A stretch of DNA of 64,000 nucleotides from Marinitoga hydrogenitolerans DSM 16785 (GTDB lineage: Bacteria; Thermotogota; Thermotogae; Petrotogales; Petrotogaceae): positions 1-64,000 of the forward strand of contig NZ_FQUI01000002.1 in assembly GCF_900129175.1 (NCBI RefSeq). The letters are read 5' to 3'. The notes below the pieces were generated by a model. That model had not been told where the DNA came from. It saw only the letters and a list, made by a program, of their open reading frames with translations, and did no database searches. Of this stretch, positions 26,598 through 50,142 are shown piece after piece; within the stretch, counting starts at the first letter, position 1; each line of letters begins with the position of its first letter. The translations under genes were made by a program, and so were the position numbers.

Positions 26598-27626
26598 TTA
26601 TATTATCCTAATGTTTTCCATTACGTCTTTTAATGTTGTAACAAATATACCTATTGCATAATCTGAAATACCTCCTACCCAAATTATATAATCTCCATAT
26701 TTTATAAGACCATCTCCAAAAATAACAAAAGCTCTATCCCCATAATTTTCAATCATTCCTTCTGGGTATAATAAATAATCACTTATTCCAAGTAAATTCC
26801 CTTCTTCATCAACTATAGCAAATCCATTTTTATACGACAAATCTTCTTTTAAGACAGCATGCCAACCAACTAAATAATTATTACCTACCTTTATTGCATT
26901 CGTTGACCATCCAACTTTTGTTTCCCATGATTCTGCTGCCATAATTGGTTCTAACGAGTCTGGTAATACCCTCATTTTTTTTAAATCCGCTGTTCCTTTC
27001 CAACATAAAAATGTGTTGTCTATTTCTAATCTAGTAAGTATTGATGCAATATCTCCTTTTATATCTAAAAATGCACTATCTTTCATTGTGGGAGGATAAA
27101 ATATTTCTTTATCATTTGAAATTTTAAAAAATGATTTATTTAAAATTTCTAAATTATGATCTAATTTCGAAAATGCTAAAACATCTCTCCTCTTTTCATT
27201 GTGATCAACATATCCCTTACCTGTATATAACATAAGATATTCTCCGTTATATTTTATAACTCTTGCATCTTCGCTTCCAAGAAATTCCCATAAATATTCT
27301 GGATATAAAATCACACTGGCATCAATTTCATTCTTAACAATATTATTTAAGATATTTTCTATATTTAATTCAAAAAAACCTACACTCGACGTATAGTTAT
27401 AATAATCAAATATTAATCTTGGAAAAATTTTTAATTTCTTATCTTCTAACACCGCTCCAGGATTGAAAATAGCTATAGGCCTTCTCTGATAATTTTTAAT
27501 TCTTAAATTATCAGGATAAATATAATATCGTTTAAAAAAAATGTTTTTGGTAATGTTTTTTCTTATAGATCTTTTTTTCTCTAAAAAATTTTTGTTTTTT
27601 TCATATAACACATTTTTAATTTCCAT
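26598..27626 (-). CDS. GH130-type (PH1107-related) mannoside phosphorylase/hydrolase
   Basis: This is a distant member of the GH130 five-bladed propeller family, which attacks beta-1,4 or beta-1,2 mannosides. Visible landmarks are IAIFNPGAVLEDKKL, YTSSVG, GSEDARVIKYNGEYLMLYTG (the ED-R catalytic segment) and AESWETKVGWSTNAIKVGNNYLVGWH. The protein has 342 residues from the ATG at 27626, which follows AAGGAGG; an upstream in-frame start would run through the operator. It is the sole gene transcribed divergently from the inositol operon and shares its operator, so inositol-linked mannosides are a plausible substrate. Sequence alone does not decide phosphorylase versus hydrolase. Confidence 0.75.
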   Translation of the reverse strand: MEIKNVLYEKNKNFLEKKRSIRKNITKNIFFKRYYIYPDNLRIKNYQRRPIAIFNPGAVLEDKKLKIFPRLIFDYYNYTSSVGFFELNIENILNNIVKNEIDASVILYPEYLWEFLGSEDARVIKYNGEYLMLYTGKGYVDHNEKRRDVLAFSKLDHNLEILNKSFFKISNDKEIFYPPTMKDSAFLDIKGDIASILTRLEIDNTFLCWKGTADLKKMRVLPDSLEPIMAAESWETKVGWSTNAIKVGNNYLVGWHAVLKEDLSYKNGFAIVDEEGNLLGISDYLLYPEGMIENYGDRAFVIFGDGLIKYGDYIIWVGGISDYAIGIFVTTLKDVMENIRII

Positions 27627-27640: not shown

Positions 27641-27654
27641 TGTAAGCGTTTTCA
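27641..27654. promoter_or_regulatory. LacI-type operator before the GH130-like gene
   Basis: TGTAAGCGTTTTCA lies between the ribosome site and a TATACT -10 box (27675-27670, minus). The 20 bases 27641-27660 are repeated exactly at 27923-27942. The position overlaps the start of the transcript, so binding would block it. Confidence 0.85.
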
Positions 27655-27697
27655 AAAAAACCTATAAAAAGTATAACATTTTTTCTCGTCTTCAAAA

Positions 27698-27736
27698 AAG
27701 TTCTTTTAATTCGATTAAACCTGAATAAAAGAACTT
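27698..27736 (-). other. Inverted repeat with U-tract between divergent genes
   Basis: A perfect 11-bp inverted repeat (AAGTTCTTTTA 27698-27708 with TAAAAGAACTT 27726-27736) has a 17-base loop. Read on the minus strand it is followed by TTTTTTGAAG, which overlaps the likely -35 of the GH130-like gene. It could terminate upstream antisense transcripts. The rest of 27627-27946 contains promoters and the two operators only. Confidence 0.5.
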
Positions 27737-27922
27737 AATTTCCATTATTAGCAAAATACTTAATATTTATCAAATTTTCAAAAATCTTAAAAAATAGAAA
27801 GTTTTGATTTTTATACTTAAATAATAATAATATTGTATAATAACTAATAAACCAGTAAGATGACACCTAAAACAATTTGAAATTTTTATTAATAATTTAT
27901 ATAATCAATATGTATAGAAAAA

Positions 27923-27936
27923 TGTAAGCGTTTTCA
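27923..27936. promoter_or_regulatory. LacI-type operator before the inositol operon
   Basis: TGTAAGCGTTTTCA is identical to 27641-27654 and lies 10 bases before the regulator gene, downstream of a TATAAT at 27836-27841. The two identical sites 282 bases apart bracket the divergent promoters and could permit looping. Confidence 0.85.
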
Positions 27937-27946
27937 AAAAAAAGGG

Positions 27947-28930
27947 GTGATCGAAATAATTACGACTAAAGATATTGCTAAAATTGCGAATGTTTCTATA
28001 GCAACTGTTTCAAGAGTTTTAAACAATAATCCTAATGTTTCTGAAAAAACAAGAAAAAAAGTGATAATGGCAATTGAATCTTTAGGATATGAACCTAATC
28101 TATTCGCAAAAAATTTGGCTAAAAAAAACAAATGGAATATTGCGATAGGCTGTACAGAAGAAGTTTTTGAGGGTTTTAAAGATTCTAAAAATAATTTTTA
28201 CCTTCCAATCATGTCTGGTATTAAAGAATATTTTTCTAAAATAAAAGCTGAAATATTTATTTTTTCAATTGAAGATAAAAAATTAAATATATCTTTTAAT
28301 GATGTTGATGGATTTTTGTTAGTTGGTGGTGGTTTAAAAAAAGAAGATATCGAATTTTTTTTAAAATATAAGAAACCTGTTGTTGTTGTTGATGAATATG
28401 TTTGGGGACTTGACGTTGATAGTATAGTAAGTAATGGATTTTTGGGAACATATAATATAGTAAGATTTTTTCTAGAAAAAGGATATAAAAAAATTGTTTA
28501 TTTCCATTTTAAAGAAAAACATTATAGCTTTGAACAACGAAAATTAGGTTATGAAAAAGCTTTGCTTGAAAAAGATTTGATACCAAAAATATATTCATTT
28601 CAAGACATAACCGATTTAAAAAATTTAACCAAAAATGTAATGAAAGAAAAACCTGAAATCATTGTAACAAGCAAGGATTTATGCGCAATTGAAATAATGA
28701 ATATTTTAAATGAAAACAAATACAAAATACCTGACGATGTTGGAGTTATAGGATTTGATGATCTGAAAATTTCAGAAGATTTTCAGCTTACAACTGTTAG
28801 AGTCCCAAGAGAAGAAATGGGCAATTTAGCAGCTGGAAGATTATTTGATCTAGTAAATGGTGTTAATCCTCATCCTATAGTAATTTCACTTTTCACAAAA
28901 CCAATAATACGAAAAAGCGTAAAAATTTAA
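27947..28930 (+). CDS. LacI-family regulator of the inositol operon
   Basis: This repressor has about 327 residues, with the helix-turn-helix TTKDIAKIANVSIATVSRVLNNNPNVS and a sugar-binding-type effector domain ending PIIRKSVKI. It heads the operon, with the GAPDH-like gene 18 bases downstream, and has an operator just upstream shared with the divergent GH130-like gene. It is related to the regulator at 46191 (shared IVSNGF, RGYKK/KGYKK and HP..SLFT segments), and both control GH130 genes. The GTG at 27947 is within the GGGGTG ribosome site. AUA (27956) or AUU (27959) codons, at better spacing and at the usual LacI N-terminus, are possible starts. Confidence 0.88.
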   Translation: MIEIITTKDIAKIANVSIATVSRVLNNNPNVSEKTRKKVIMAIESLGYEPNLFAKNLAKKNKWNIAIGCTEEVFEGFKDSKNNFYLPIMSGIKEYFSKIKAEIFIFSIEDKKLNISFNDVDGFLLVGGGLKKEDIEFFLKYKKPVVVVDEYVWGLDVDSIVSNGFLGTYNIVRFFLEKGYKKIVYFHFKEKHYSFEQRKLGYEKALLEKDLIPKIYSFQDITDLKNLTKNVMKEKPEIIVTSKDLCAIEIMNILNENKYKIPDDVGVIGFDDLKISEDFQLTTVRVPREEMGNLAAGRLFDLVNGVNPHPIVISLFTKPIIRKSVKI

Positions 28931-28948
28931 AAAAAGGAGTTGATGAGC

Positions 28949-29974
28949 ATGGTAAAAGTTGGTGTGGTTGGTTATGGTACTATCGGGCAAAGATTAGCTG
29001 ACGGTGTTGCTTTACAAAAAGATATGGAATTAATAGGAATTGCTGATGTTGCTCCCACATTACCTGTATTGGCTTTAAAAGAAAAAGGAATGCCTTATAA
29101 TTTTTATTTAGCTCTTTCAGAAAATAAAGAAAAGTTAGAAAAATTTGGTATTCCAATTTCTGGCAATTTGGAAGATTTGATAAAAAAATGTGACATAATT
29201 TTAGATGCTACAAATGCTGGAATTGGAGCAAAAAATAAAAAATTATATGAAAAATATGGTAAAAAAGCTATTTTTCAAGGGGGAGAGAAAACTGAAATTG
29301 CTGATGTATTTTTTCACGGTTATGCAAATTTCGAAAAAGGTTTGGGAAAACAATTTTTAAAACTTACCTCTTGTAACACAACCGGATTAATAAGAACCGT
29401 TGATGCGTTAGATAGAGAAATAGGAATTGATAATGTAATAATAACAATTGTTAGAAGGGTTGCTGATCCAGGAGATTATCATAGAGGACTCACAAATGCT
29501 CTTAAAGTTGACAAAGTTCCAAATCATCAAGCTGTAGATTTAATGCTTGTTATGCCTCACGTAAAAGCTACAGGAACATTAGTACATACTCCTGTTACAC
29601 ATGGCCATTTTATTACAGTTGCTGCTAAGCCTAAAAAAACTGTTACTAAAGAAGCTGTTGTAGAAATATTTAAAAAACACCCTCGAATTAGAGTTGTTAA
29701 AATTGAAGATGGATTCTTAGGTAATGCATCTATTTTTAAATTTGGTAGAGATCTTGGACATCCAAGAGGTGATTTATATGAAGTGTTTACATGGGAAGAA
29801 ACTATAACTGTATTTGATGACAGAATAATATATTCAATTCATATTCCTCAAGAATCTGTTACTATTCCAGAAACAATAGACGGTATTAGAGCAGCAATGA
29901 AAATGCAATTAGATAGATTAGAAGCAGTAAGCTTAACTAATAAATACTTAAATATAAAAAATATAAATTATTAG
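28949..29974 (+). CDS. gap: Archaeal-type (type II) glyceraldehyde-3-phosphate dehydrogenase paralogue
   Basis: This is a 341-residue phosphorylating aldehyde dehydrogenase of the archaeal GAPDH class. Visible features are the dinucleotide fold GVVGYGTIGQRLADGV, the catalytic SCNTTGLIRT (Cys142), RRVADPGDY, and the C-terminal IPQESVTIPETIDGIRA. Bacterial glycolysis normally uses the unrelated-looking class I enzyme. The archaeal GPxNAIxP segment reads GLTNALKV here, hinting at a changed substrate site. In this inositol operon I infer oxidation of D-malate semialdehyde, a structural analogue of glyceraldehyde 3-phosphate, to an acyl phosphate. Ordinary GAPDH activity remains possible. The ATG at 28949 follows AAAGGAG. 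Confidence 0.88.
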   Translation: MVKVGVVGYGTIGQRLADGVALQKDMELIGIADVAPTLPVLALKEKGMPYNFYLALSENKEKLEKFGIPISGNLEDLIKKCDIILDATNAGIGAKNKKLYEKYGKKAIFQGGEKTEIADVFFHGYANFEKGLGKQFLKLTSCNTTGLIRTVDALDREIGIDNVIITIVRRVADPGDYHRGLTNALKVDKVPNHQAVDLMLVMPHVKATGTLVHTPVTHGHFITVAAKPKKTVTKEAVVEIFKKHPRIRVVKIEDGFLGNASIFKFGRDLGHPRGDLYEVFTWEETITVFDDRIIYSIHIPQESVTIPETIDGIRAAMKMQLDRLEAVSLTNKYLNIKNINY

Positions 29975-30059: not shown

Positions 30060-31322
30060 ATGAAGGATCTTAAAATAAATACTTTAGATGATTTTGACTT
30101 TTACGATAAGACTGTTATTTTAAGAGTCGATATCAATTCACCACTTGACCCAAAAACGAAAAAAATTGTAAACGAAAATAGGATCAATAAGGTTGTACCT
30201 ACAATCAAAGAATTATTAAATAAAGGTGCAAAATTAGCTATAATAGCTCATCAAGGTGATTCGCTTGATTATTTCAATCTAATCCCACTTGAAGAACATG
30301 CGAAAAAGCTTTCAGAAAAAATTGGTGCGGAAATTAAATATATTGATGATGTTGCGGGTCCTGCTGCTCAAAATTTAATAAAAAATTTAAAAAAGGGTGA
30401 AGCAATACTTCTCGGAAATCTCAGATATTTAAGTGAAGAAATTTCTACCTTTGAAGATACTGTTAAATTAAGCCCTAAAGAAATGCTAAATACATTTTTA
30501 ATTCGTCATTTGGCACCTCTTGGAGATATTTATGTAAATGAAGCTTTTTCTGCCGCACATAGAAATGCTCCTTCAATGGTTGCATTTGAAGAGCTTTTAC
30601 CTACAGCTGGTGGTAGATTGTTAATTTCTGAAATAAATGCCTTATCAACTGTAATGAAAAATCCTCAAAAACCATCTATCTTTGTTTTAGGAGGATTAAA
30701 AGTCTCAGATGCTTTTGGAATGATGAAACAAGTATTAGAAAATGGCACTGCTGATAAGATTTTAACTTGTGGTGTAACTGGAATTATCATGCATATGTCT
30801 CTAGGCAAATCTTTTGGTAAAAAACAAGAAAAATTTATATATGATCGTTCTTTAAATAAATTTTTTGAACCTGCTAAAGAATTTATGAAAAAGTGGGGAG
30901 ATAAATTTATTAATCCAATTGATTTTGCTTATGAAAATAACGGAAAAAGAATAGAAGTAAGTCTAGATGATTTGCCTGTTAACGATGCACTATTCCTAGA
31001 TATTGGCACAAAAACAATTGAATTATTTAAGAAAGAAATAAATAACGCAAAAACTATATTTGTCAATGGGCCTGCTGGAGCTTATGATCAAAATAAAAAT
31101 TTTGAAAAAGGAACATATGAAATATGGAATGCAATTGCTGATTCAAATGCTTACTCTGTAATAGGTGGTGGCGACTCTGTAAGCGCTGCCCATAAATTGG
31201 TAAAAGATGCTGAAAAGAAATTTAGCTATATTTGCACTGCCGGAGGAGCTATGGTTAGATTTTTATCCGGAAAAGAATTGCCGCTCATAAAAGCGTTAAA
31301 AAAGGCATATAGAAAGAGGTGA
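30060..31322 (+). CDS. pgk: Archaeal-type phosphoglycerate kinase paralogue with altered phosphate site
   Basis: This 420-residue acyl-phosphate kinase has the archaeal PGK lay-out: LRVDINSPLDP at the N-terminus, GNLRYLSEE, YVNEAFSAAHRNAPSMV, VLGGLKVSDA, FVNGPAGAYD and the C-terminal GGGDSVSAA. Of the basic residues that grip 3-phosphoglycerate, R41, H64, R122 and R168 are kept. The Arg of the HxGRP loop is replaced: the loop reads HQGDSLD, with Asp67. In the 3-phosphoglycerate complex this region helps bind the substrate phosphate. That fits a substrate carrying a carboxylate or lacking the phosphate. I infer D-malyl phosphate to D-malate with ATP formation. A GAGGTGAT ribosome site precedes the ATG. 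Confidence 0.88.
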   Translation: MKDLKINTLDDFDFYDKTVILRVDINSPLDPKTKKIVNENRINKVVPTIKELLNKGAKLAIIAHQGDSLDYFNLIPLEEHAKKLSEKIGAEIKYIDDVAGPAAQNLIKNLKKGEAILLGNLRYLSEEISTFEDTVKLSPKEMLNTFLIRHLAPLGDIYVNEAFSAAHRNAPSMVAFEELLPTAGGRLLISEINALSTVMKNPQKPSIFVLGGLKVSDAFGMMKQVLENGTADKILTCGVTGIIMHMSLGKSFGKKQEKFIYDRSLNKFFEPAKEFMKKWGDKFINPIDFAYENNGKRIEVSLDDLPVNDALFLDIGTKTIELFKKEINNAKTIFVNGPAGAYDQNKNFEKGTYEIWNAIADSNAYSVIGGGDSVSAAHKLVKDAEKKFSYICTAGGAMVRFLSGKELPLIKALKKAYRKR

Positions 31323-31327
31323 TTTTT

Positions 31328-32401
31328 ATGAAAAAGTATAAAATAGCTGTAATACCAGGTGATGGTGTTGGTGTTGAAGTTATAAATGAGGGATTGAAAA
31401 TTCTTAATACTATAAAAGAAATACACGGAGGTATAGATTTTGAATTTAAAACATTTCCGTGGAGTTGTGAATATTATTTGAAAACTGGAAAAATGATGCC
31501 TAAAGATGGAATAAAAATTTTAAGTGATTTTGAGGCTATATATTTGGGTGCTGTTGGATTTCCTGGTGTTCCAGATCACATTTCATTATGGGGATTATTA
31601 TTGCCTATAAGAAAGGAATTCGACCAATATGTTAATCTAAGACCAGTTAAATTATTAAAAGGAATTAAGGGTCCTTTAAGAACTGAAAAAATTGATTTTG
31701 TTGTTGTAAGAGAAAATGTAGAAGGAGAATATTCCGGAACAGGAGGACGATTATACCAAGGTACTGAAAACGAAGTTGCTATTCAAACTGCAGTTTTCAC
31801 CAGAAAAGGAACAGAAAGAGTTATGAGATATGCTTTTGAATTAGCAATGAAAAGAAATAAAAATTTAATTTCTACAACAAAATCAAATGCTTTGAATTAT
31901 GGAATGGTTTTTTGGGATGACATTTTTAATAATTTAAAAAACGATTATCCTGAAGTCGAAACTCGCACTATGCATGTTGATGCTTTATCTGGATATTTTC
32001 TACTACATCCTGAAAATATAGATGTAGTTGTTGCTTCTAATTTGTTTGGGGATATATTAACAGATTTAGGATCAGCAATGCAAGGTAGTATAGGAATCGC
32101 TCCTGGAGCAAATATTAATCCTGAAAAAAAATACCCATCGATGTTTGAGCCTGTTCATGGATCAGCTCCTGATGTCGCTGGAAAAGGAATTGCAAACCCT
32201 ATAGGTGCCATTTGGACAGCGAGTATGATGTTAGATCACCTTGGGGAAACAGATTCTGCTAAATTAATCATGAAAGCACTAGAAAAAGTAACTGAAGAAG
32301 GTATATATCTCACAAAAGATGTGGGCGGAAATTCTAAAACTCATGAAGTTGGAGATGCTGTTAATAACAAAATAAAAGAATTAGCAAAGAACAGTTGGTG
32401 A
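31328..32401 (+). CDS. dmlA: D-malate/tartrate dehydrogenase (decarboxylating), DmlA/TtuC family
   Basis: This 357-residue beta-decarboxylating dehydrogenase belongs to the isopropylmalate/isocitrate dehydrogenase superfamily. The segment VPDHISLWGLLLPIRKEFDQ and YVNLRPVKLL are diagnostic of the tartrate/D-malate branch, as in E. coli DmlA. The metal and NAD segments VVRENVEGEYS, ASNLFGDILTDLG and EPVHGSAPDVAGK are intact. DmlA-type enzymes convert D-malate to pyruvate, CO2 and NADH. No tartrate or malate uptake gene is nearby, so D-malate is probably generated inside the inositol pathway. The ATG at 31328 follows AGAGGTGA. Confidence 0.85.
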   Translation: MKKYKIAVIPGDGVGVEVINEGLKILNTIKEIHGGIDFEFKTFPWSCEYYLKTGKMMPKDGIKILSDFEAIYLGAVGFPGVPDHISLWGLLLPIRKEFDQYVNLRPVKLLKGIKGPLRTEKIDFVVVRENVEGEYSGTGGRLYQGTENEVAIQTAVFTRKGTERVMRYAFELAMKRNKNLISTTKSNALNYGMVFWDDIFNNLKNDYPEVETRTMHVDALSGYFLLHPENIDVVVASNLFGDILTDLGSAMQGSIGIAPGANINPEKKYPSMFEPVHGSAPDVAGKGIANPIGAIWTASMMLDHLGETDSAKLIMKALEKVTEEGIYLTKDVGGNSKTHEVGDAVNNKIKELAKNSW

Positions 32402-32405: not shown

Positions 32406-33257
32406 ATGCTTACAAAAGATGAATTAAAAAAAATTAAAAAGTTTGCAATCCAAATACGCATAGAAACATTAAAGGAAATCGGAAATTTAGGATTTGGACA
32501 TTTACCAGGTGCTATGTCTATTGTAGAATTATTAGCTGTTTTATATAGTAAAGTTCTTAAAATTGACCCAAAAAAAACAGATTGGAATGAAAGAGATTGG
32601 TTTATTTTATCTAAAGGTCATGCTGGTCCATCTCTATATGCAACTTTAGCGATAAAAGGATATTTCCCTAAAGAATGGTTATTAACTTTGAATAAAGGTG
32701 GAACATTATTACCAAGCCATACAGATAAAAACTTAACCCCGGGAATTGATATGACAACAGGTTCATTAGGCCAAGGAATGTCTACAGCTCTTGGTGTAGC
32801 TTTAGGTTTTAAACTCTCAAAAAAAGATAATTATGTATATGTTGTGTTAGGAGATGGCGAGTCTCAAGAAGGGCAAGTTTGGGAAGGCGCTTTATATGGA
32901 GGAAATTTAAAGTTAGATAATTTAACTGTATTTATTGACTATAACAAACAACAATTAGATGGATATACAAAAGATATAAACGATTTAGGAGATTTAAGAA
33001 AGAAATGGGAAGATTTTGGTTGGTATGCTATTGAAGTCGATGGACATAATATTGAGGATATATATAATGCTGTAGTAGAGGCTAAAAAAATCAAAAATAA
33101 AAGTTCTGTAATAATTTTGAATACGGTTAAAGGAAAAGGTGTTTCATTTTTAGAAGGCAAAGTTGCACATCATGTAAAAGTAAAACAAACTGAAATTGAA
33201 AAAGCGATAAAAATCCTTGAGAAAGAACTAGAAAGCCTTGAAGAAGGTGATTTGTAA
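32406..33257 (+). CDS. Split transketolase, N-terminal (thiamine diphosphate-binding) subunit
   Basis: This 283-residue protein is the ThDP pyrophosphate-binding half of a transketolase. It has LSKGHAGPSLYATLA, the ThDP motif GDGESQEGQVWEGALYGG ... NLTVFIDYN, and TTGSLGQGMSTALGVALG. Split transketolases in catabolic operons usually act on special ketose substrates (for example apulose-4-phosphate or sulfofructose). Here it lies between the dehydrogenase and iolB. I infer it takes the two-carbon unit from 2-deoxy-5-keto-D-gluconate, whose hydroxyls have the 3S,4R arrangement transketolase needs. It overlaps the C-terminal subunit by one base. Confidence 0.9.
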   Translation: MLTKDELKKIKKFAIQIRIETLKEIGNLGFGHLPGAMSIVELLAVLYSKVLKIDPKKTDWNERDWFILSKGHAGPSLYATLAIKGYFPKEWLLTLNKGGTLLPSHTDKNLTPGIDMTTGSLGQGMSTALGVALGFKLSKKDNYVYVVLGDGESQEGQVWEGALYGGNLKLDNLTVFIDYNKQQLDGYTKDINDLGDLRKKWEDFGWYAIEVDGHNIEDIYNAVVEAKKIKNKSSVIILNTVKGKGVSFLEGKVAHHVKVKQTEIEKAIKILEKELESLEEGDL

Positions 33258-34222
33258 TGGATGTTAAGATATCTAAAGATAATAATGTGGATACTAGAAT
33301 GATGAGAGATGCTTATATAGATAAGCTAATTGAATTAGCAAAAAATGATGAAAAAATAGTTCTTTTAGATGCTGATTTGATGAGTTCTAATGGTACCATA
33401 AAATTTTCAAAAATATTCCCGGAAAGAACATTTAATGTTGGTGTTCAAGAAGCAAATATGGTAGGAATAGCTGCTGGATTAGCGGCAACAGGGAAAATAT
33501 CTTTTGCACATACATTTACATCTTTTATGTCACGAAGAGCTCTTGATCAAGTATATATGTCAGTAGCATATGCAAAATTAAATGTTAAATTGGTTGCTAC
33601 AGATCCTGGAATAACTGCTGCATATAACGGCGGGACACATATGGCTTTACAAGATTTTGCTGTTATGTTATCAATACCTACAATGTATGTTGTAGAACCT
33701 ACTGATTGTGTTATGATCGAAAACTTAGTTGAACAAATAACTTATACAAAAGCTCCCTTTTATGTAAGACTATTAAGAAAAAATCCTATTAAAATATATG
33801 AAAATTGTAGTAAATTTAAGTTAGGAAAAGGCGTTATACTTATGGATGGAAATGATGCAACCATTATAGCAAGTGGAATTATGGTTAGTGAAAGTTTAAA
33901 AGCTGCTGAATTATTAAAAAAAGAAAATATTAATGTACGTGTTATAGACATGTTTACATTAAAACCTATTGATGAGAAATTAATTATTGAAAGTGCCAAA
34001 AAAACTGGTGCGATTATAACAGCTGAAAACCATACAATCATTAATGGGTTGGGAATGTCAGTAGCAAAAGTAGTTTCCGAAAATTATCCTGTTCCTATAG
34101 AGATGATTGGCATAAATGATGAATTTGGTGAAGTGGGCGATGTTGAATATTTGAAAAAAAGATTCAAATTGACATCAGAAGATATTGTAAAAAAAGTTAA
34201 AAAAGCTTTAAAAAGAAAATAA
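33257..34222 (+). CDS. Split transketolase, C-terminal (pyrimidine-binding) subunit
   Basis: This 321-residue partner of the preceding subunit carries the pyrimidine-binding domain (GVQEANMVGIAAGLAATGKISFAHTF, with the catalytic Glu in QEANM) and the C-terminal transketolase domain (VRVIDMFTLKPIDEKLI). It starts one base before the end of the N-terminal subunit, so the two are certainly made together. The pair should form an alpha2beta2 enzyme. Its donor in this context is the proposed deoxyketogluconate, with glyceraldehyde 3-phosphate or ribose 5-phosphate as acceptor. Confidence 0.9.
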   Translation: MDVKISKDNNVDTRMMRDAYIDKLIELAKNDEKIVLLDADLMSSNGTIKFSKIFPERTFNVGVQEANMVGIAAGLAATGKISFAHTFTSFMSRRALDQVYMSVAYAKLNVKLVATDPGITAAYNGGTHMALQDFAVMLSIPTMYVVEPTDCVMIENLVEQITYTKAPFYVRLLRKNPIKIYENCSKFKLGKGVILMDGNDATIIASGIMVSESLKAAELLKKENINVRVIDMFTLKPIDEKLIIESAKKTGAIITAENHTIINGLGMSVAKVVSENYPVPIEMIGINDEFGEVGDVEYLKKRFKLTSEDIVKKVKKALKRK

Positions 34223-34234: not shown

Positions 34235-35026
34235 TTGATAATAAAAAAAGAAAAAGAATTTAAAAAAGGATATAATTCTATAACTTCCGAAGATGATAAA
34301 CAAAATAACACTATGATGGACTTCGGAATAATAATACTGAAAGATAGCGATGTATATATAAATTCTGAAAAAAAAGAAAGAGTTTTTTTAATAATGAATG
34401 GAGAAGTTTTATGTGAATATGATGAAATTTCATTTACAATAACAAGAAATTCTTTATTTGATGAATCTCCATATGTTTTGCATATTCCTAATAATATAAA
34501 TATAAAGTTAATTGCAAAAAAAGAAGCTGAGATCTGCTATGTTGCAACAAAAAATGATGTTATTTTTCAAAGCAAATTATATAATCCCAAAGATGTACGT
34601 TCTGAATATCGTGGAAAAGGTACTATGAAAGAAACATCAACCAGAATTGTTAGGACTGTTTTTGATAAATCTAACGCTCCACAATCAAATTTGGTCATAG
34701 GTGAAGTCATAAATTATCCTGGTAAATGGTCGAGCTACCCTCCACATCATCATCCTCAACCTGAAATTTATCATTATAGATTTTTACCAAAACAAGGATT
34801 CGGAATATCAATCTTAGGAGATGATGCATATAAAATATATGATGGAGATACTGTATTGATATTAGATGATAAAGTACATCCTCAAGTTTCAGCACCTGGT
34901 TATGCAATGTATTATATATGGGCCATAAGACATTTAGAAAATAACCCATATATTACTCCAACTTTTGATAAAGAACATTTATGGGTAATGGAGAAAAATG
35001 CTTCCATTTGGCCAGAGGAGGAATGA
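34235..35026 (+). CDS. iolB: 5-deoxy-glucuronate isomerase
   Basis: IolB isomerises 5-deoxy-D-glucuronate to 2-deoxy-5-keto-D-gluconate. The 263-residue bicupin has the metal-binding run PPHHHPQPEIYHYRF and the C-terminal VHPQVSAPGYAMYYIWAIRH seen in IolB. The start is a TTG at 34235 after GGGGGGA. The neighbouring iolD, iolE and iolG place it firmly in inositol catabolism. Confidence 0.93.
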   Translation: MIIKKEKEFKKGYNSITSEDDKQNNTMMDFGIIILKDSDVYINSEKKERVFLIMNGEVLCEYDEISFTITRNSLFDESPYVLHIPNNINIKLIAKKEAEICYVATKNDVIFQSKLYNPKDVRSEYRGKGTMKETSTRIVRTVFDKSNAPQSNLVIGEVINYPGKWSSYPPHHHPQPEIYHYRFLPKQGFGISILGDDAYKIYDGDTVLILDDKVHPQVSAPGYAMYYIWAIRHLENNPYITPTFDKEHLWVMEKNASIWPEEE

Positions 35027-35028
35027 TT

Positions 35029-36903
35029 ATGAAAAAACTAAAATTAACAATGGCACAAGCTTTATTAAAATTTTTAGATAATCAATATGTGGAATTTGAT
35101 GGAAAAGAATACAAATTTATAAAAGGAATTTTTGGTATTTTCGGACATGGAAATGTATTAGGAATTGCAGAAGCTTTAGAAAACATGAAAGATTTGTCAT
35201 TAAAATTTTATCAGGGTCATAATGAACAAGGAATGGTTCATGCAGCAACTGCTTACGCGAAACAAAAAAACAGATTAGAAATTTTTGCCTGTACTAGTTC
35301 CATAGGACCTGGAGCGCTAAATATGGTAACAGCTGCAGCAACTGCTACTGTAAATAAAATACCAGTATTATTGTTACCTGGAGATATTTTCGCTTCAAGA
35401 CAACCTGATCCTGTATTACAGCAATTAGAAATGCCTAATAATTATAAAATGGTTGCTAATGATGCATTCAAATCTGTAAGTAAATATTGGGATAGAATAG
35501 AAAGACCTGAACAATTGATGTCAGCAGTAATAAATGCTATGCGTGTTTTAACGGATCCTGTTGAAACTGGAGCTGTTACATTAGCCTTACCCCAAGATGT
35601 ACAAGGAGAAGTATATGAATATACATATGATTTTTTCAGAAAAAGAGTATGGATAATTGAAAGAAGAACTCCCAACTATGAAAGTTTGAAAAAAGCGGCT
35701 AATCTTATATCAAATAAGAAAAAACCGTTAATCATTGCAGGTGGCGGTGTCCATTATTCATTTGCATATGATGAATTAAAAGAATTTGCTGAAACATTTA
35801 ATATTCCAATTGGGTTTACTCAAGCTGGAAAAGGTGCATTAGTATGGGATCATCCGTTAAATATGGGTGGAATAGGTACAACAGGAACATTAGCAGCGAA
35901 TAAATTAGCAAAAGAAGCTGATTTGATAATAGCAATTGGAACAAGATTGATGGATTTCACTACCGCTTCTAAAACACAATTTCAAAATAAAAATGTGGAA
36001 TTTTTGAATATTAACATTTCAAGATTTGACGGCATAAAATTAGATTCAACATTACTTTTATCAGATGCTAAATTGGCATTAAAAGAATTAAAAAAAGAAC
36101 TTGAAAAAAGAGAATACAAATCCGGATATACTCAAAAGTATATTTCTTCATTAAAAAATAAATGGAATGAAGAAGTTAATAAATTATATTCTTTAAATTC
36201 TAAAAAAGGTATTGTTCAAACAAGAGCTTTAGGGTTAATTAACGAATTGTTTAATGAAAATGATATTATAGTTGGAGCTGCTGGAAGTTTACCTGGAGAT
36301 TTACATAAACTTTGGAGATGCAAAGGTATTAAAACTTATCATCTTGAATATGGTTTTTCTTGCATGGGTTATGAGGTTGCCGGAACTTACGGGGTAAAAC
36401 TAGCTGAACCTAAAAAAGAAATTTGGACTATGATCAGTGATGGTAGTTATATAATGTTGCATTCCGAACTTGTGTCTTCAATCCAAGAAGGAAAAAAGAT
36501 TAATATTATCATGTTTGATAATGGAGGATTCCAATCTATAAACTCTCTACAAAAAGGTCATGGAAGCGAAAAAGGATTTGGGAACGAATTAAGATATAGA
36601 AATTCAAAAACTGATAAACTAGATGGAGAATATATGAAAATTGATTTTGCCAAAAATGCTGAAAGTTATGGAGCAAAAGCTTTTTATGTTGACACCATTG
36701 AAAAATTAGAAGATGCTTTAAAAAAAGCACGAGAATCGGAAATTAGTACTCTTATTCATATAAAAATTATACCTGGAACTCAATCTTCAGGATATGAAAC
36801 TTTTTGGAGAGTTGGTATTGCTCATCATTCTCAAAACCCTAAAGTTATTGAAAAGCAAAAGGATCATGATGAATACTTACAAAAATATGCAAAAGATTAT
36901 TGA
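35029..36903 (+). CDS. iolD: 3D-(3,5/4)-trihydroxycyclohexane-1,2-dione hydrolase (ThDP-dependent)
   Basis: IolD opens the inositol-derived ring diketone to 5-deoxy-glucuronate. The 624-residue ThDP enzyme of the acetolactate-synthase fold starts LTMAQALLKFLDNQY. It has GIFGHGNVLGIAEAL, the catalytic Glu in YQGHNEQGMVHAA, IGPGALNMVTAAATA and the ThDP motif SDGSYIMLHSEL ... NIIMFDNGGF. The ATG at 35029 is chosen because GAGGAGG lies 8 bases upstream. It begins 2 bases after the iolB stop. Confidence 0.95.
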   Translation: MKKLKLTMAQALLKFLDNQYVEFDGKEYKFIKGIFGIFGHGNVLGIAEALENMKDLSLKFYQGHNEQGMVHAATAYAKQKNRLEIFACTSSIGPGALNMVTAAATATVNKIPVLLLPGDIFASRQPDPVLQQLEMPNNYKMVANDAFKSVSKYWDRIERPEQLMSAVINAMRVLTDPVETGAVTLALPQDVQGEVYEYTYDFFRKRVWIIERRTPNYESLKKAANLISNKKKPLIIAGGGVHYSFAYDELKEFAETFNIPIGFTQAGKGALVWDHPLNMGGIGTTGTLAANKLAKEADLIIAIGTRLMDFTTASKTQFQNKNVEFLNINISRFDGIKLDSTLLLSDAKLALKELKKELEKREYKSGYTQKYISSLKNKWNEEVNKLYSLNSKKGIVQTRALGLINELFNENDIIVGAAGSLPGDLHKLWRCKGIKTYHLEYGFSCMGYEVAGTYGVKLAEPKKEIWTMISDGSYIMLHSELVSSIQEGKKINIIMFDNGGFQSINSLQKGHGSEKGFGNELRYRNSKTDKLDGEYMKIDFAKNAESYGAKAFYVDTIEKLEDALKKARESEISTLIHIKIIPGTQSSGYETFWRVGIAHHSQNPKVIEKQKDHDEYLQKYAKDY

Positions 36904-36917
36904 TAGGAGGAATTTTT

Positions 36918-37814
36918 ATGTTAAAAAAAGATGATATTAAAATTGGCATCGCCCCAATTGCATGGACAAATGATGATATGCCAGAACTTGGTGGAGATAT
37001 ATCATTTGAACAGTGTATAGATGAAATGCAAAAAGCTGGCTATGAAGGTACTGAAATCGGAAATAAATATCCCAAAGATCCAATAAAATTAAAGTCAGAG
37101 TTAGAAAAAAGAAATTTAAAAGTAGCCAGTCAATGGTTTAGCACATTTTTTACTGTTGATAAATTTGATAAAACAATTGAAGATTTTAAAAAACATATGA
37201 ATTTTCTAAAAGCTGTTGGTGCTGAAGTTATCGTCGTTGCCGAATGCGGAAAATCCATTCATGGCAATATAAATATACCTTTACACAAAAACAAACCTGT
37301 CTTTAATGATGAAGAATGGAATAAACTCGCTAAAGGTTTAAATATTCTCGGCAATTTAGCAAAAGAAAAAAATATGAAAATAGTATATCATCATCATATG
37401 GGAACTGGAGTTCAAACCTATGAAGAAATTATTAAATTAATGGAATTAACAGATCCAACAAAAGTTTTTTTATTACTTGATACAGGTCATATTGTATTTT
37501 CAAATGGAGATCCACTTAAATTAATAGAAAAATATCCTGATAGAATTAAACACATTCATTTAAAAGATTTAAGAAAAGATATATTAGAAAAAACTTATAA
37601 AGAAGATTTGAGTTTTTTAAACGCAGTTAAAGAAGGTGTATTTACTGTTCCTGGTGATGGTATGATTGATTTCAAACCTATTTTTAATAGTTTAAATAAA
37701 ATAGATTATAAAGGATGGTTAATAGTTGAAGCTGAACAAGATCCAAAAAAAGCACCACCATTAAAATTTGCTTTAAAAGCACGAAACTATATTAAAAATC
37801 TAATAGGATTTTGA
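36918..37814 (+). CDS. iolE: 2-keto-myo-inositol dehydratase
   Basis: IolE removes water from 2-keto-myo-inositol to form the cyclohexane-dione. The 298-residue xylose-isomerase-type TIM barrel begins KIGIAPIAWTNDDMPELGG, a hallmark of IolE. It contains the metal-site segments YHHHMGTGVQ, LLDTGHIVFS and HIHLKD, and ends with WLIVEAEQDPKKAPP. The ATG at 36918 has ATAGGAGG upstream. It sits between iolD and iolG. Confidence 0.95.
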   Translation: MLKKDDIKIGIAPIAWTNDDMPELGGDISFEQCIDEMQKAGYEGTEIGNKYPKDPIKLKSELEKRNLKVASQWFSTFFTVDKFDKTIEDFKKHMNFLKAVGAEVIVVAECGKSIHGNINIPLHKNKPVFNDEEWNKLAKGLNILGNLAKEKNMKIVYHHHMGTGVQTYEEIIKLMELTDPTKVFLLLDTGHIVFSNGDPLKLIEKYPDRIKHIHLKDLRKDILEKTYKEDLSFLNAVKEGVFTVPGDGMIDFKPIFNSLNKIDYKGWLIVEAEQDPKKAPPLKFALKARNYIKNLIGF

Positions 37815-37823: not shown

Positions 37824-38837
37824 ATGGATAAAAAACTTAAAATTGGTGTAATTGGAGCAGGAAGGATTGGTAAAATTCATGCAAGGAATATTGCCAAATT
37901 AAATAATGTTGAATTAATAAGTATTGCTGATATTAATGTTGAAGCAGCCAAAGATTTAGCAATAAAAGTTGGTGCAAAAAAATATTTTTCTGATTTCCTA
38001 AAAGTGATAAACGATGATGAAATTGATGCTGTTGTTATTTGCTCGCCAACTAATACTCATGCAAAGCTAATAATAGAAAGTGCAAAAGCTGGAAAAGATA
38101 TATTTTGCGAAAAACCTATAGACTTTGATATAGAAGTTATCAAAAAAGCTTTGGAAGTTGTTAAAGAATGTGGAGTGAAATTACAATTGGGCTTTAATAG
38201 AAGATTTGATCATAATTTTAAAAAAATCAAAGAATTAATACAAAATGATGAGTTAGGAAAACCTCATATTATAAAAATTACATCTAGAGATCCAAAAGCA
38301 CCCCCTCCTGAATATGTAAAAACTTCTGGAGGAATTTTCATGGATATGACCATACATGATTTTGATATGGCAAGATATCTTGCTAATTCGGAAGTAGAAG
38401 AGGTTTTTGCTGTGGGTAATGTTTTAATAAATCCAGAATTTGAAGAATTACATGATTTTGATACTGCTGTTATAACATTAAAATTTAAAAACAATGCCGT
38501 ATGTCTAATAGATAATAGTAGAGAAACTTCATATGGTTATGATCAGAGAATTGAATATTTTGGAATTAAAGGATGTGCTATTGCTCAAAATGATAAACCT
38601 ACCAATACTATAATATTAAACGAAAAAGGGGTTTTATCTGATAAACCTTTATACTTTTTTTTAGAAAGATATATGAAATCATTTGAAGAAGAAATAAAAG
38701 AGTTTGTTAATTCTGTATTAAACGGTAAAAATGTTCCTGTTTCTGGAGAGGATGGTTTAAAAGCCACTTTAATCGCTAAAGCTGCTTTAATTTCCGCAAG
38801 AGAAAACCGCCCTGTAAAAATGGAAGAACTTTTATAA
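37824..38837 (+). CDS. iolG: myo-Inositol 2-dehydrogenase
   Basis: IolG oxidises myo-inositol to 2-keto-myo-inositol with NAD. The 337-residue GFO/IDH/MocA protein shows the Rossmann motif GVIGAGRIGKIHARN, the catalytic Lys in FCEKPID, and the conserved GGIFMDMTIHDFDMARYL with Asp/His catalytic residues. It is last in the operon, just before a strong terminator. The family also contains other inositol dehydrogenases (scyllo-inositol, D-chiro-inositol), so stereoisomer preference is open. Confidence 0.92.
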   Translation: MDKKLKIGVIGAGRIGKIHARNIAKLNNVELISIADINVEAAKDLAIKVGAKKYFSDFLKVINDDEIDAVVICSPTNTHAKLIIESAKAGKDIFCEKPIDFDIEVIKKALEVVKECGVKLQLGFNRRFDHNFKKIKELIQNDELGKPHIIKITSRDPKAPPPEYVKTSGGIFMDMTIHDFDMARYLANSEVEEVFAVGNVLINPEFEELHDFDTAVITLKFKNNAVCLIDNSRETSYGYDQRIEYFGIKGCAIAQNDKPTNTIILNEKGVLSDKPLYFFLERYMKSFEEEIKEFVNSVLNGKNVPVSGEDGLKATLIAKAALISARENRPVKMEELL

Positions 38838-38978: not shown

Positions 38979-39692
38979 TTATTCATCAACTTCCTTCAAT
39001 AATTTAAGAAGTGATGGATAATGTGTGGTGATTCCATCCACATTCATACGAATCATTTTTTTCATATCTTCTTTTCTATCTACAGTCCAAACTTGAACAA
39101 ATAATCCATTTAAATGTGCATTATAAACAAGGTTTTCATTACATAATTTATAATTTATATTAATTCCAATTGCTCCAGTTTTAATTGCAATCTTTATTAA
39201 TGTTTTATTAAAAATACTAATATCTTCTTTGGTTAAATATTCAAATTCTTGAGAATTCAAAAAAATAGCATAATTATCATCCAATTCTCTTAACTTCATA
39301 ACCCACGATGAACTACAACCACTAAAAATTATTTTTTCTGTGTAATTTAATTTTTTTAATAAAGTAATTACTGGCTCTATAACATCCTCACTTTTTAAAT
39401 CAAGGTTAAGATGTATCTTCATATTTATATCTTTTAAAACCTCTTCTAATGAAATAACTCCATTTTTTCTTAAAATGTTATTTATAACATTTGATGTTTT
39501 TTCAAAATGCCCAGAATTTTTATAAATAAATGGGTCATGTGATAAAACCAACACTTTATCTTTACTCATATCAATATCAACTTCAATAATATCTGCACTG
39601 GAATTAATTGCTGAATATATATGTTCAAAAGAATTATCTTCTGTATCATTACAACCAGAATGAGCTGTTATTAATGGCTTTAATGCTTTCAT
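38979..39692 (-). CDS. Glycerophosphodiester phosphodiesterase-family protein, divergent active site
   Basis: This 237-residue GDPD-fold TIM barrel lacks a signal peptide, so it acts inside the cell on an imported substrate. The two catalytic His (His11 in TAHSGC, His52 in LSHDP) and the metal ligands Glu37/Asp39 (IIEVDI) are kept. The usual HRG reads HSG, and the PENT metal-ligand motif reads EDNS, with Asp for Glu. The C-terminal VQVWTVDRKEDM and GITTHYP match the family. It is the last gene of an ABC operon beside the inositol operon, so glycerophosphoinositol or di-myo-inositol phosphate are candidate substrates. This is inference. Confidence 0.8.
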   Translation of the reverse strand: MKALKPLITAHSGCNDTEDNSFEHIYSAINSSADIIEVDIDMSKDKVLVLSHDPFIYKNSGHFEKTSNVINNILRKNGVISLEEVLKDINMKIHLNLDLKSEDVIEPVITLLKKLNYTEKIIFSGCSSSWVMKLRELDDNYAIFLNSQEFEYLTKEDISIFNKTLIKIAIKTGAIGININYKLCNENLVYNAHLNGLFVQVWTVDRKEDMKKMIRMNVDGITTHYPSLLKLLKEVDE

Positions 39693-39701
39693 ATATTCCT
39701 C

Positions 39702-40802
39702 CTAAAAAAGAAGATTTTCTCCTGTGTTTTTATCAAAAAGATGAAAATTAGTATCTGGAAATTTTAAATATATATCATCATCTATTTTTAATTCATACTT
39801 TTCATCACTGATTATTTTAAAAATATTGTTTCCTAATTTGATATTATATATAATTTCCCTTCCTAAAGGTTCAAGGATATATACCTTTGATTTAAAAGAA
39901 TTTCCTTCTTCTTTCTTAAACCTTATTTTAATATCTTCTGGTCTCAATCCCATCAAAACATTTTTCTCACTTATTTTATTTATTTTTTCTTTTATTTCCT
40001 TATTAACTATTTTTATCTTAATATCATCTTCAATTTTAATATAAACATCCTCACCTAATTTTATAATTTCAACATCTATTATATTCATTGACGGAGTACC
40101 AACAAATCTTGCTACAAATATGTTTTTTGGTTGATTATATATTTTATCCGGAATATCAAATTGCATCAACTTACCTTTATTAAATACAGCAATTCTATCA
40201 GCCATTGTCATTGCTTCAATCTGATCATGAGTAACATAAACAGAAGTTATTCCTAAATCATGTTGCAACTTTTTGATTTCTGCACGCATATAAGCTCTTA
40301 ATGCAGCATCTAAATTAGATAAAGGTTCATCAAATAATAAAATTTTAGGTTTTTTTACAAGAGCTCTAGCAATTGCAACTCTTTGCTGTTGTCCTCCTGA
40401 AATTTGATTAGGTTTTCTATCTAGTAATTTACCAATATCAAGATTTTTAGTTACATCTTTTACTTTCTTATCTATTTCATTTTTATCCATTTTTTTTGCT
40501 TGAAGTGGGAATGCAATGTTTTCATATAATGTCATATGAGGATATAATGCATAACTTTGAAAGACCATACCGATTTCTCTATCTTTCGGAGGAACTTCAT
40601 TTACAACTTGATTGTCAAATAAAATTTCTCCTCCTGTTGGCTTATATATTCCTGCTAACATTAACAATGTTGTAGTTTTACCACATCCAGATGGCCCTAA
40701 AAACACTACGAATTCTCCATCATTTATTTTTAATGAAACATCATCTACAGCTTTAACATTTCCAAAATGCTTTTTTAAATTTTTTAATTCAATTGTTGCC
40801 AT
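39702..40802 (-). CDS. Carbohydrate ABC transporter ATPase (UgpC/MsmK/MalK type)
   Basis: This 366-residue importer ATPase has Walker A GPSGCGKTTTLLMLAG, Q-loop VFQSYALYPHMTLYENI, signature ISGGQQQRVAIARAL, Walker B ILLFDEPLSNLDAALR and the H-loop YVTHDQIEAM. A C-terminal TOBE-type regulatory domain (MGLRPEDIKIRF) follows. It is the only CUT1-type ATPase in the window and may also energise the ATPase-less importers at 21234, 48438 and 63339. The ATG at 40802 is preceded by GAGTGAT; nine extra upstream bases in frame are discarded. Confidence 0.93.
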   Translation of the reverse strand: MATIELKNLKKHFGNVKAVDDVSLKINDGEFVVFLGPSGCGKTTTLLMLAGIYKPTGGEILFDNQVVNEVPPKDREIGMVFQSYALYPHMTLYENIAFPLQAKKMDKNEIDKKVKDVTKNLDIGKLLDRKPNQISGGQQQRVAIARALVKKPKILLFDEPLSNLDAALRAYMRAEIKKLQHDLGITSVYVTHDQIEAMTMADRIAVFNKGKLMQFDIPDKIYNQPKNIFVARFVGTPSMNIIDVEIIKLGEDVYIKIEDDIKIKIVNKEIKEKINKISEKNVLMGLRPEDIKIRFKKEEGNSFKSKVYILEPLGREIIYNIKLGNNIFKIISDEKYELKIDDDIYLKFPDTNFHLFDKNTGENLLF

Positions 40803-40814
40803 AAATATCACTCC

Positions 40815-41681
40815 TTAACCTTTAGTACCCGTTATATTAACTTCTAAAAGATATTTGTTTGTAAGTAAAAAGAATATTAATGTTGGTATTATGTAAAATA
40901 AAGAAATGGATGTTAATAAACCATAATCTACAAATCTGAAATCTCCAATTATTCCTTTTATATATCTTGACAAAGTCCAGGTTTGTTGGTTTAAAATAAA
41001 TGTATTTATAAAAACAAACTCTGACCATCCAGAAAGAAATCCAAAAATCGCAGCAACTGCAATACCTGGTTTAACTAAAGGTAAAATTATTTTCCTAAAA
41101 ACTTGTATTCTGCTATAACCATCAACCAAACCTGCCCATTCTATTTCCCATGGAAGTTGATCATAAAAACCTTTCATAATCCACGAGCCCCATGGTATTT
41201 CTAAAGCAGCCTTTAATAAAATGACTCCCCATAAAGTATTGATTAAATTTAGCGTATTCAATACATAATAAATAGCAACCAAAAGAGAAACTGCAGGAAA
41301 TGAATGCAATACAAGAATACTTTTTAAAATAGGAACTCTACCCTTAAATTTAAACCTTGAAAGTGCATATCCAGCAAAACTCGATACAAAAACTTCAAAT
41401 GCCATTACAAGAAAAGCTACAATAAAAGTATTAAAAGTTACAGACCAAATATTAGGGTATCCTTTAACAGATTCCCATAAAAACCTCCAATGCTCTAATG
41501 TGAATTCAGTAGGAATTATTCCATATTTCATTCCTTTCGAAAAAGAACTTAATATAAGCCATAAATAACTCAAAATTATTGGAAGACTAATAGTTATTAA
41601 AATAAAATAAACTATTATGCGTATTATTTTTTCTTTTTTCCTTTGAAAAAAAGTTATTTTATATTTTTTATCACTCATCAT
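40815..41681 (-). CDS. Carbohydrate ABC transporter permease (MalG type), probable inositol-compound importer
   Basis: This 288-residue membrane subunit has six helices. Its CUT1 coupling loop, EWAGLVDGYSRIQVFRKIILPLV, departs somewhat from the usual EAAxxDGA. The C-terminus ends LEVNITGTKG. It overlaps its partner permease by 4 bases. It belongs to the operon of a DeoR regulator, TM0415-like kinase and GDPD protein, suggesting an inositol-containing substrate. Confidence 0.88.
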   Translation of the reverse strand: MMSDKKYKITFFQRKKEKIIRIIVYFILITISLPIILSYLWLILSSFSKGMKYGIIPTEFTLEHWRFLWESVKGYPNIWSVTFNTFIVAFLVMAFEVFVSSFAGYALSRFKFKGRVPILKSILVLHSFPAVSLLVAIYYVLNTLNLINTLWGVILLKAALEIPWGSWIMKGFYDQLPWEIEWAGLVDGYSRIQVFRKIILPLVKPGIAVAAIFGFLSGWSEFVFINTFILNQQTWTLSRYIKGIIGDFRFVDYGLLTSISLFYIIPTLIFFLLTNKYLLEVNITGTKG

Positions 41682-42598
41682 GAATCAACCTCTATTCTAG
41701 GATCTTCCATCATATTTTCAAATTTAAAGATTTTCAAATAAATTAATGAAGCCACAAATCCTAATACTACTAAAACTAAAGACAATGCCGCACCATAACC
41801 AAATCTAAAATTTTCAAATGCTGTATGATATGTATATAATGCCCATACTTCTGTGGAAAACACAGGACCTCCATCAGTTAATATTAGAATATATTCAAAT
41901 GATGTTAAAAGTGACAATGTTTGATATGCTGTTGTAAAAAGAATTTGCCATTTTAAAATAGGTAAAATTACCTTTCTAACTGTAAAAAACCATCCTCCAC
42001 CATCAACTTTTGCAGCATAAATATAATCGCGTGGTATTGATTTTATTGCTGAAGTAAATAAAATCATCCCAAAAGAAGCTCCAACAAACCCATTTGCAAA
42101 TATAATAATTAACATTGGGTGAGCACTCAAAAAGTTTATTGGCTCTTTCCCAAAAGCTTCTGTCCTTATACCATTTATCATACCAAACTTTGTTGGGTCA
42201 AATATCCATAACCATAACAATGAATAAACTACAGAAGGGGTTAATCTCGGCAACATCCATAACAATCTAAAAACCAACCCTCCATTTTCATCAATAGAAG
42301 TTGTTAATAATGATAAAACTAATGCCAACCCTACATTAAAAAAGGTTAATGTTAAAAGCACATATGTAAATGTATTTTTTATAACTATTGGAACTAAAAA
42401 ATCAGAAAACATATCTTTAAAGTTAGTGAATCCATGAAAATCCCAATTAAAAGAATAATCCATATCAGTGAAAGATAGAATAAAAGTTAATATTGCTGGT
42501 ATAACAAAAAATACTATTACAAGTAATATACCAGGAAATAAAAAGAAAAAGAGCGATAACTTTGTACCTTTTTTATAATTTTTTTTAGAAATATTCAT
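41678..42598 (-). CDS. Carbohydrate ABC transporter permease (MalF type)
   Basis: This is the partner permease, 306 residues, with six or seven hydrophobic segments and a coupling loop reading YAAKVDGGGWFFTVRKVILPIL. It lies after a stem-loop that separates it from the binding-protein gene. Together with the gene at 40815 it forms the membrane channel of the importer. Confidence 0.9.
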   Translation of the reverse strand: MNISKKNYKKGTKLSLFFFLFPGILLVIVFFVIPAILTFILSFTDMDYSFNWDFHGFTNFKDMFSDFLVPIVIKNTFTYVLLTLTFFNVGLALVLSLLTTSIDENGGLVFRLLWMLPRLTPSVVYSLLWLWIFDPTKFGMINGIRTEAFGKEPINFLSAHPMLIIIFANGFVGASFGMILFTSAIKSIPRDYIYAAKVDGGGWFFTVRKVILPILKWQILFTTAYQTLSLLTSFEYILILTDGGPVFSTEVWALYTYHTAFENFRFGYGAALSLVLVVLGFVASLIYLKIFKFENMMEDPRIEVDS

Positions 42599-42623
42599 TA
42601 TATCACGACCCCTTTACTTTAAA

Positions 42624-42650
42624 TACTCTCTCTCCTAAAGAGAGAGAGTA
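42624..42650 (-). other. Stem-loop between binding-protein and permease genes
   Basis: A perfect 11-bp stem (TACTCTCTCTC with GAGAGAGAGTA) and 5-base loop start 6 bases after the binding-protein stop. It has the same position as the unrelated stem-loop at 23002 in the galactose operon and probably the same role in favouring receptor expression. Confidence 0.7.
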
Positions 42651-42656
42651 ATAAAA

Positions 42657-44009: not shown

Positions 44010-44037
44010 ACCAATCCCTCCTGAAATGATTTATTTT

Positions 44038-44883: not shown

Positions 44884-44903
44884 ATAAAAACCTCCTAAAC
44901 AAA

Positions 44904-45910: not shown

Positions 45911-45924
45911 GAAAATCGCTTACA
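45911..45924. promoter_or_regulatory. Possible additional LacI-type half-conserved operator
   Basis: GAAAATCGCTTACA matches 11 of 14 positions of TGAAAACGCTTACA, the operator of the inositol LacI, and shares CGCTTAC with the operator at 46158. It could bring the DeoR/ABC operon under either LacI protein. Confidence 0.4.
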
Positions 45925-46157: not shown

Positions 46158-46171
46158 GGTAAGCGCTTACC
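46158..46171. promoter_or_regulatory. LacI-type palindromic operator
   Basis: GGTAAGCGCTTACC is a perfect 14-bp palindrome 19 bases before the LacI gene at 46191, in a position for autoregulation of the mannoside operon. Confidence 0.85.
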
Positions 46172-46190
46172 ATACTAATGAGGTGATAAA

Positions 46191-47180: not shown

Positions 47181-47182
47181 AA

Positions 47183-48433: not shown

Positions 48434-48437
48434 TCAT

Positions 48438-50131: not shown

Positions 50132-50142
50132 GGTGTTACTTT

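Follow-up and report, generated by a model that had tools for sequence, protein, structure and literature searches.

The window analyzed here, a stretch of 64,000 nucleotides from Marinitoga hydrogenitolerans DSM 16785 (contig NZ_FQUI01000002.1, positions 1 to 64,000), contains an inositol operon that very likely encodes a transketolase-type pathway, with the LacI-family protein encoded at 27947 as the repressor acting at two identical sites, one ahead of this operon and the other ahead of a divergent GH130 gene. Breakdown of inositol via a transketolase is probably a new route, recurrent across several phyla.

The operon is located on the plus strand and starts with the LacI-family regulator (27947..28930), which has both the HTH and the sugar-binding domain (PF00356 and PF13377) and is 51–52% identical to regulators found in two more distant relatives, G039 and G041. 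It is followed by a type II (archaeal-type) GAPDH (28940..29974; PRK04207, 405 bits, family cut-off 185) that has the catalytic Cys within an SCNTTG motif kept in 95% or more of 81 sequences, and for which we propose a function as phosphorylating D-malate semialdehyde dehydrogenase. Next come a PGK-like kinase (30060..31322; PF00162, 352.6 bits), the proposed D-malyl phosphate kinase, and a tartrate/D-malate dehydrogenase (decarboxylating) (31319..32401; TIGR02089, 571 bits, over the NCBIfam TTC cut-off of 470; best PDB match 3flk). A transketolase is split into an N-terminal half (32406..33257; PF00456) and a C-terminal half (33257..34222; PF02779 and PF02780). The remaining genes encode a probable IolB, 5-deoxy-glucuronate isomerase (34235..35026; PF04962, 191 bits, over the Pfam cut-off, although under that of TIGR04378, 106.6 vs 205 bits), IolD (34981..36903; TIGR04377, 914 bits, cut-off 715), IolE, inosose dehydratase (36900..37814; TIGR04379, 430 bits, cut-off 290), and IolG, inositol 2-dehydrogenase (37824..38837; TIGR04380, 469 bits, cut-off 355), the last three all over their NCBIfam cut-offs. 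The preliminary description of this DNA had called the cluster an inositol operon, which holds as far as IolD, IolE, and IolG are concerned and probably for IolB, but it is not the textbook operon: an extra enzyme set is present, no iolC over the cut-off was found in the genome (best 145 bits vs 300), and profile searches of the operon genes found no aldolase.

In comparison with the Bacillus-type pathway (IolG-E-D-B-C-J-A), the first four enzymes, with IolB as a probable assignment, are present and adjacent in the window, but IolC is missing and the apparent transketolase cut would lead to D-malate semialdehyde and not to malonate semialdehyde. We infer this chemistry, as well as the repression, from gene content, stereochemistry, and co-occurrence. 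IolG, IolE, IolD, and IolB would convert myo-inositol into 2-deoxy-5-keto-D-gluconate (DKG), the same as in the known pathway, and the split transketolase would then shift carbons 5 and 6 of DKG to an aldose phosphate, in place of the phosphorylation by IolC and the aldol cleavage by IolJ. DKG minus two carbons would give D-malate semialdehyde, i.e., (R)-3-hydroxy-4-oxobutanoate, which can be regarded as an isostere of D-glyceraldehyde 3-phosphate where CH2-COO- replaces the phosphate ester arm. From there, the type II GAPDH would form D-malyl phosphate, the PGK-like kinase would yield D-malate plus ATP, and the D-malate dehydrogenase would convert D-malate to pyruvate and CO2, a step for which relatives devoid of this enzyme would use a malate racemase instead, often together with a malic enzyme. 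By our own reasoning, DKG read from C6 is a ketose with the D-threo configuration needed by transketolase, and the stereochemistry predicts D- and not L-malate; the operon carries a dehydrogenase of the D-malate/tartrate type. If true, this route would gain one ATP, whereas the known one spends one.

The active site of the PGK-like kinase was compared among 77 PGK-like proteins. The position equivalent to Arg65, which we take to be a phosphate-binding residue of PGK (numbering and role alike), is occupied by Asp in 52 of them, Ser in 20, Gly in 4, and Asn in 1, and the positions of His62, Arg122, Arg170, and Arg38 are kept in 77/77. The source genome has a separate canonical PGK elsewhere, with Arg at the Arg65 position, and the archaeal PGK 2cun has Lys there in the alignment. 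The PGK-like proteins lack the full 3-phosphate binding set of phosphoglycerate kinase.

A single scan with the GAPDH protein as query, run on named genomes, provided 80 loci, in which neighbors absent from the window were grouped by clustering. A PGK-like gene was near GAPDH in 78 of these loci, both transketolase halves in 41, and at least one of IolB, IolD, or IolE in 36. A LarA-type gene appeared in 44 loci and a malic-enzyme-like gene in 24. All 44 LarA-type genes match malate-racemase models (E <= 1e-130; 42 of Mar2 type and two of Mar1 type), some of them scoring under the curated cut-off (L004, 493 vs 500), and the 23 malic-enzyme-like genes scanned all match malic enzyme domains. Malate racemase is present in 28 of the 36 iol-bearing loci and D-malate dehydrogenase in three, with both in none and neither in five, these five all having cut flanks; restricted to the 22 iol loci with full flanks, the figures are 20, two, zero, and zero. 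The two enzymes are not strictly exclusive, since in G039 they are found together. The iol genes were out of reach in the other 44 GAPDH loci, 32 of them with cut flanks. Eight loci (L028, L066, L071, L015, L045, L052, L068, and L069) have GAPDH-II and the PGK-like gene with no iol genes within reach, and some iol-less loci of this kind adjoin pyruvate-dehydrogenase-like genes. Given that 44/80 loci show no iol genes and 4/16 GAPDH-bearing genomes of the class described below no iolD, the GAPDH/PGK-like module may serve other sugars too. The cluster was found in Clostridia, Thermotogota, Spirochaetes, Chloroflexi, and others, including gut bacteria, and the D-malate route deduced here appears to recur in many anaerobic bacteria.

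As controls, 13 iolC-type loci (L166–L178, from 12 Clostridia-class genomes) gave no match to racemase, malic enzyme, GAPDH-II, PGK-like, or transketolase-half genes, and no D-malate dehydrogenase was found in them. At the whole-genome level we used 391 genomes from the class of Caloramator (G111), with iolD in 28, iolC over the cut-off in 13, and type II GAPDH in 16. The 28 iolD genomes comprise 12 with GAPDH, 12 with iolC (11 over the cut-off, and G195 slightly short of it), none with both, and four with neither (p = 7e-5, or 3e-4 with the strict iolC count). Co-occurrence of iolD and GAPDH is marked, with GAPDH in 12/28 genomes with iolD vs 4/363 without (p = 2e-12). Among the 38 distinct genomes bearing the GAPDH-iol cluster, iolC is also present in four. 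All four iolD genomes that lack iolC and GAPDH alike have a transaldolase-family gene (PF00923) near iolB, iolD, iolE, and iolG (L179:6913-7986, L180:7077-8150, L181:7865-8953, and L182:9425-10498), of which no relative was found near the other iol loci compared. An aldehyde dehydrogenase domain is present in both clusters scanned, L179 and L181. This is probably a third way of cutting DKG, of transaldolase type, and suggests that a three-carbon unit is removed and malonate semialdehyde left.

Regarding regulation, the two stretches said in the preliminary description to be identical are indeed so, with the same letters throughout, TGTAAGCGTTTTCAAAAAAA, i.e., TGTAAGCGTTTTCA followed by AAAAAA. 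Copy 1 (27641..27660) is upstream of the GH130 gene and was delimited by letter identity and copy counts, and copy 2 (27923..27942) is upstream of the LacI gene and the inositol operon, with the placement of the motif in G039 as additional evidence; as features both are given without strand. Since the genome is AT-rich and an A-run accounts for about six of the 20 bases, it is the 14-mer TGTAAGCGTTTTCA that carries the information. The window has exactly two copies of it, and when up to two mismatches are allowed there are five matches vs 0.69 expected, a number reached in 0/100 shuffles. The genome scan for further copies that the same description had proposed returned only these two, either exact or with up to one mismatch, in 2,312,367 bases, and the reversed control pattern had no matches in the whole genome. 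The copies start at 27641 and 27923, 282 bp apart, in the gap that divides the divergent GH130 (minus strand) and LacI (plus strand, 27947) genes; both read in plus orientation, so that they do not mirror each other with respect to the two genes. Of the promoter-like matches, the best (TTGAAA-17-TATAAT, 27877-27905, 11/12) ends ahead of the plus-strand copy, which begins 17 bp after it and is directly ahead of the LacI ribosome-binding site. Because no promoter-like match adjoins the copy on the GH130 side, we infer rather than observe the blocking of GH130. LacI bound at both operators would repress its own operon together with the divergent GH130 gene, and an inositol-derived inducer would lift the repression. 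DNA looping between the two operators was considered and set aside, the 327-aa regulator being, we assume, too short to hold the tetramerisation helix.

The other 20 genomes of the family have no exact copy of the 14-mer, and no clear homologue of type II GAPDH, the marker gene of the operon, was found in them; the motif does not recur there because the other members do not have the operon, and therefore more distant relatives were used for the link between GH130 and inositol. In G039, TGTAAGCGATTACA appears twice, 128 bp apart, before the LacI gene, with the same placement directly ahead of the ribosome-binding site as copy 2. G041 has one motif pair before the GAPDH/inositol operon (127 bp apart) and a second one before a LacI-transporter-kinase-GH130 operon (114 bp apart), and L004 another before GAPDH (127 bp apart), so that the operator pair is conserved upstream of orthologous operons in the three of them with a spacing of 114–128 bp. 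No such operator was seen in L003, the closest GAPDH relative. Of the five near-matches in G041, four lie in the two upstream gaps concerned, which cover 1.7% of the stretch (p = 4e-7). With a matrix derived solely from G039 and G041, the window sites come second and third in the window, but the same score was reached by 5/30 random windows and the scan was rejected as proof of the sites for that reason. The pairs kept before orthologous operons support the proposal that these are LacI-type operators, and their conservation agrees with the predicted binding of LacI to both sites.

The GH130-like glycoside phosphorylase/hydrolase gene (26598..27626, minus strand) encodes 342 aa from a probable ATG at 27626 that is closely preceded by GGAGG; alignments to full-length homologues begin at residue 3 to 19. 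Judged by its profile (PF04041, 241.5 bits, cut-off 26) and by the conserved ED.R, whose Asp we take to be the catalytic residue, the protein clearly belongs to GH130, though as a remote member. The positions of ED.R, KDS, and GWH are conserved within its clade, where ED.R and KDS are retained alongside two blocks particular to the clade, GWSTN and GWH.V.K.DL.Y.NG. The beta-1,2-mannobiose phosphorylases 7fip and 9fj8 are weakly similar and share ED.R, but the window protein belongs to a separate clade far under the NCBIfam cut-offs (47.9 bits vs 450 for the beta-1,2-mannobiose phosphorylase equivalog).

The tie between this gene and the inositol operon, already put forward in the preliminary description, is borne out by the shared operators and by gene linkage in G039 and G041. 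In G039, a single minus-strand run includes LacI, GAPDH, PGK-like, malate racemase, the transketolase halves, and D-malate dehydrogenase, then IolB, IolD, IolE, IolG, a binding protein, two permeases, and an ATPase, and finally a TIM-barrel protein, a PfkB kinase, a DUF6454 protein, and GH130 as the last gene. In G041, a LacI gene heads a second operon beside the inositol one, with transporter, kinase, and GH130 genes and a few others between the last two. Among 103 Thermotogota genomes, the type II GAPDH marker is present in five, GH130 in 22, and both in four, i.e., GH130 is enriched in genomes with the marker (4/5 vs 18/98, p = 0.007). The two genes are on separate contigs in G035 (L003), and the Thermotogota homologue search found no GH130 in G042 (L004). 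GH130 is part of the inositol gene set in Thermotogota. Known GH130 enzymes act on beta-mannosides. Mannosyl-di-myo-inositol phosphate is named among hyperthermophile solutes, and related solutes in Thermotogales are cited, in a review (PMC1224877). On these two grounds, a mannosyl-inositol substrate for GH130 is a reasonable guess.

Downstream of the inositol operon there is a convergent DeoR-PfkB-transporter-GDPD set (38979-45668, minus strand). It consists of a glycerophosphodiester phosphodiesterase-like gene (38979..39692; PF03009, 81.7 bits), a probable partner, an ABC transporter with ATPase, two permeases, and binding protein (39702..44009; homologues of 66–78% in the inositol/GH130 operons of G039 and G041), a PfkB-family kinase (44038..44913; PF00294, 35.8 bits), with homologues in the same operons, and a DeoR-family regulator (44904..45668), a 55% homologue of which adjoins GH130 in G087. 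Because its transporter and kinase sit in the inositol/GH130 operons of the relatives, the set probably feeds the inositol pathway, possibly with a phosphodiester as the substrate. Ahead of the DeoR operon, at 45911, there is a weak half-site (matrix score 6.3), which was set aside. There is about an even chance, in our estimation, that a wider picture holds, with three interchangeable cuts of DKG (IolC/IolJ, transketolase with ATP gain, and transaldolase to malonate semialdehyde) in parallel to those that sulfoglycolysis uses on its own sugar, a role for Mar2 in the second, and the Thermotogota GH130 and transporter scavenging mannosyl-inositol heat solutes.

The GAPDH, PGK, and transketolase could also be duplicated glycolytic and pentose-phosphate enzymes that handle the triose phosphate from an IolC/IolJ cleavage encoded elsewhere, these families normally doing such work and dihydroxyacetone phosphate being the product of the standard cleavage. 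The same product is reported for inositol cleavage in Anaerostipes (PMC8355322). We consider this highly unlikely, as the genome has no iolC over the cut-off and a canonical PGK of its own, iolC and GAPDH never overlap among the 28 iolD genomes, the phosphate-binding Arg is lost in the PGK-like proteins, and the malate racemase or D-malate dehydrogenase would be left without a role.

Where regulation is concerned, the shared site fits the broad LacI/CcpA-type operator consensus and a related palindrome, GGTAAGCGCTTACC, precedes a second LacI gene, so it might be a general cre-like operator of another regulator, such as the LacI at 24334 or 46191; yet the genome has only two copies within one mismatch and the motif follows the orthologous regulator in another family, which makes such an operator very unlikely. 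A stronger contender, although still less probable than a link through inositol, is that the operators are genuine but the GH130 substrate is a beta-mannoside with no relation to inositol, co-regulation being due only to the shared biomass source of both substrates. It would agree with the 22/103 Thermotogota genomes that have GH130 homologues, mostly without the inositol operon, and with the presence of GH130 in 0/80 named GAPDH loci, but in G039 the GH130 gene closes an inositol operon that includes the same transporter and kinase, and in G041 it is in one operon with that transporter set. Membership of GH130 in the LacI-controlled inositol set is the reading that we retain.

Other solutions for the cleavage step have been described. 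The GapMind paper presents an IolC-DUF2090 variant with another aldolase (PMC9007349), which, unlike the window route, keeps the IolC kinase and the phosphorylated intermediate. The Anaerostipes inositol-to-propionate pathway is likewise an anaerobic inositol fermentation but works with IolC and IolJ (PMC8355322). In sulfo-TK and sulfo-TAL sulfoglycolysis, transketolase or transaldolase cleaves a ketose that bears a charge at one end (PMC11659671), the same cutting logic on another substrate, to which the window route adds a GAPDH/PGK pair that would make ATP. The paper on the malate racemase Mar2/LarAH6, the type found in 42/44 racemase-bearing loci, leaves its in vivo role open, and the words inositol and transketolase are absent from its accessible text (PMC7583248), as from that of a later malate racemase paper (PMC11770544). 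A survey of 193,757 genomes has iolC among the core genes defining inositol users, with no occurrence of "transketolase" in the text available (PMC9430895), and in the corresponding part of another article the only transketolase mentioned is that of the ordinary pentose phosphate pathway (PMC12130570). We found no report of a transketolase or transaldolase inositol route in open-licence PubMed Central, a collection outside which preprints fall and a subscription paper may exist. Because the large survey treats iolC as a core gene, bacteria with the GAPDH-iol cluster could be overlooked or taken as broken. The proposed route would also offer a probable function for malate racemase, a bacterial type II GAPDH, and the PGK-like family, otherwise glycolytic-looking, and, if true, the nickel-dependent Mar2 gets a cellular role.

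Two other occurrences of GH130 deserve mention. A second LacI-led operon in the window (46158-51027) comprises the LacI gene at 46191, preceded by the palindrome at 46158, a binding protein, two permeases, and a second GH130 gene at 50128, whose product is near the beta-1,2-mannobiose phosphorylases (360 bits, cut-off 450). Besides, the clade of the first GH130 is also found outside any obvious sugar operon in seven genomes of one Thermotogota genus (G090–G096, loci L130–L136), and in six of them it adjoins a gene that, from its sequence, we take to be peroxiredoxin-like.
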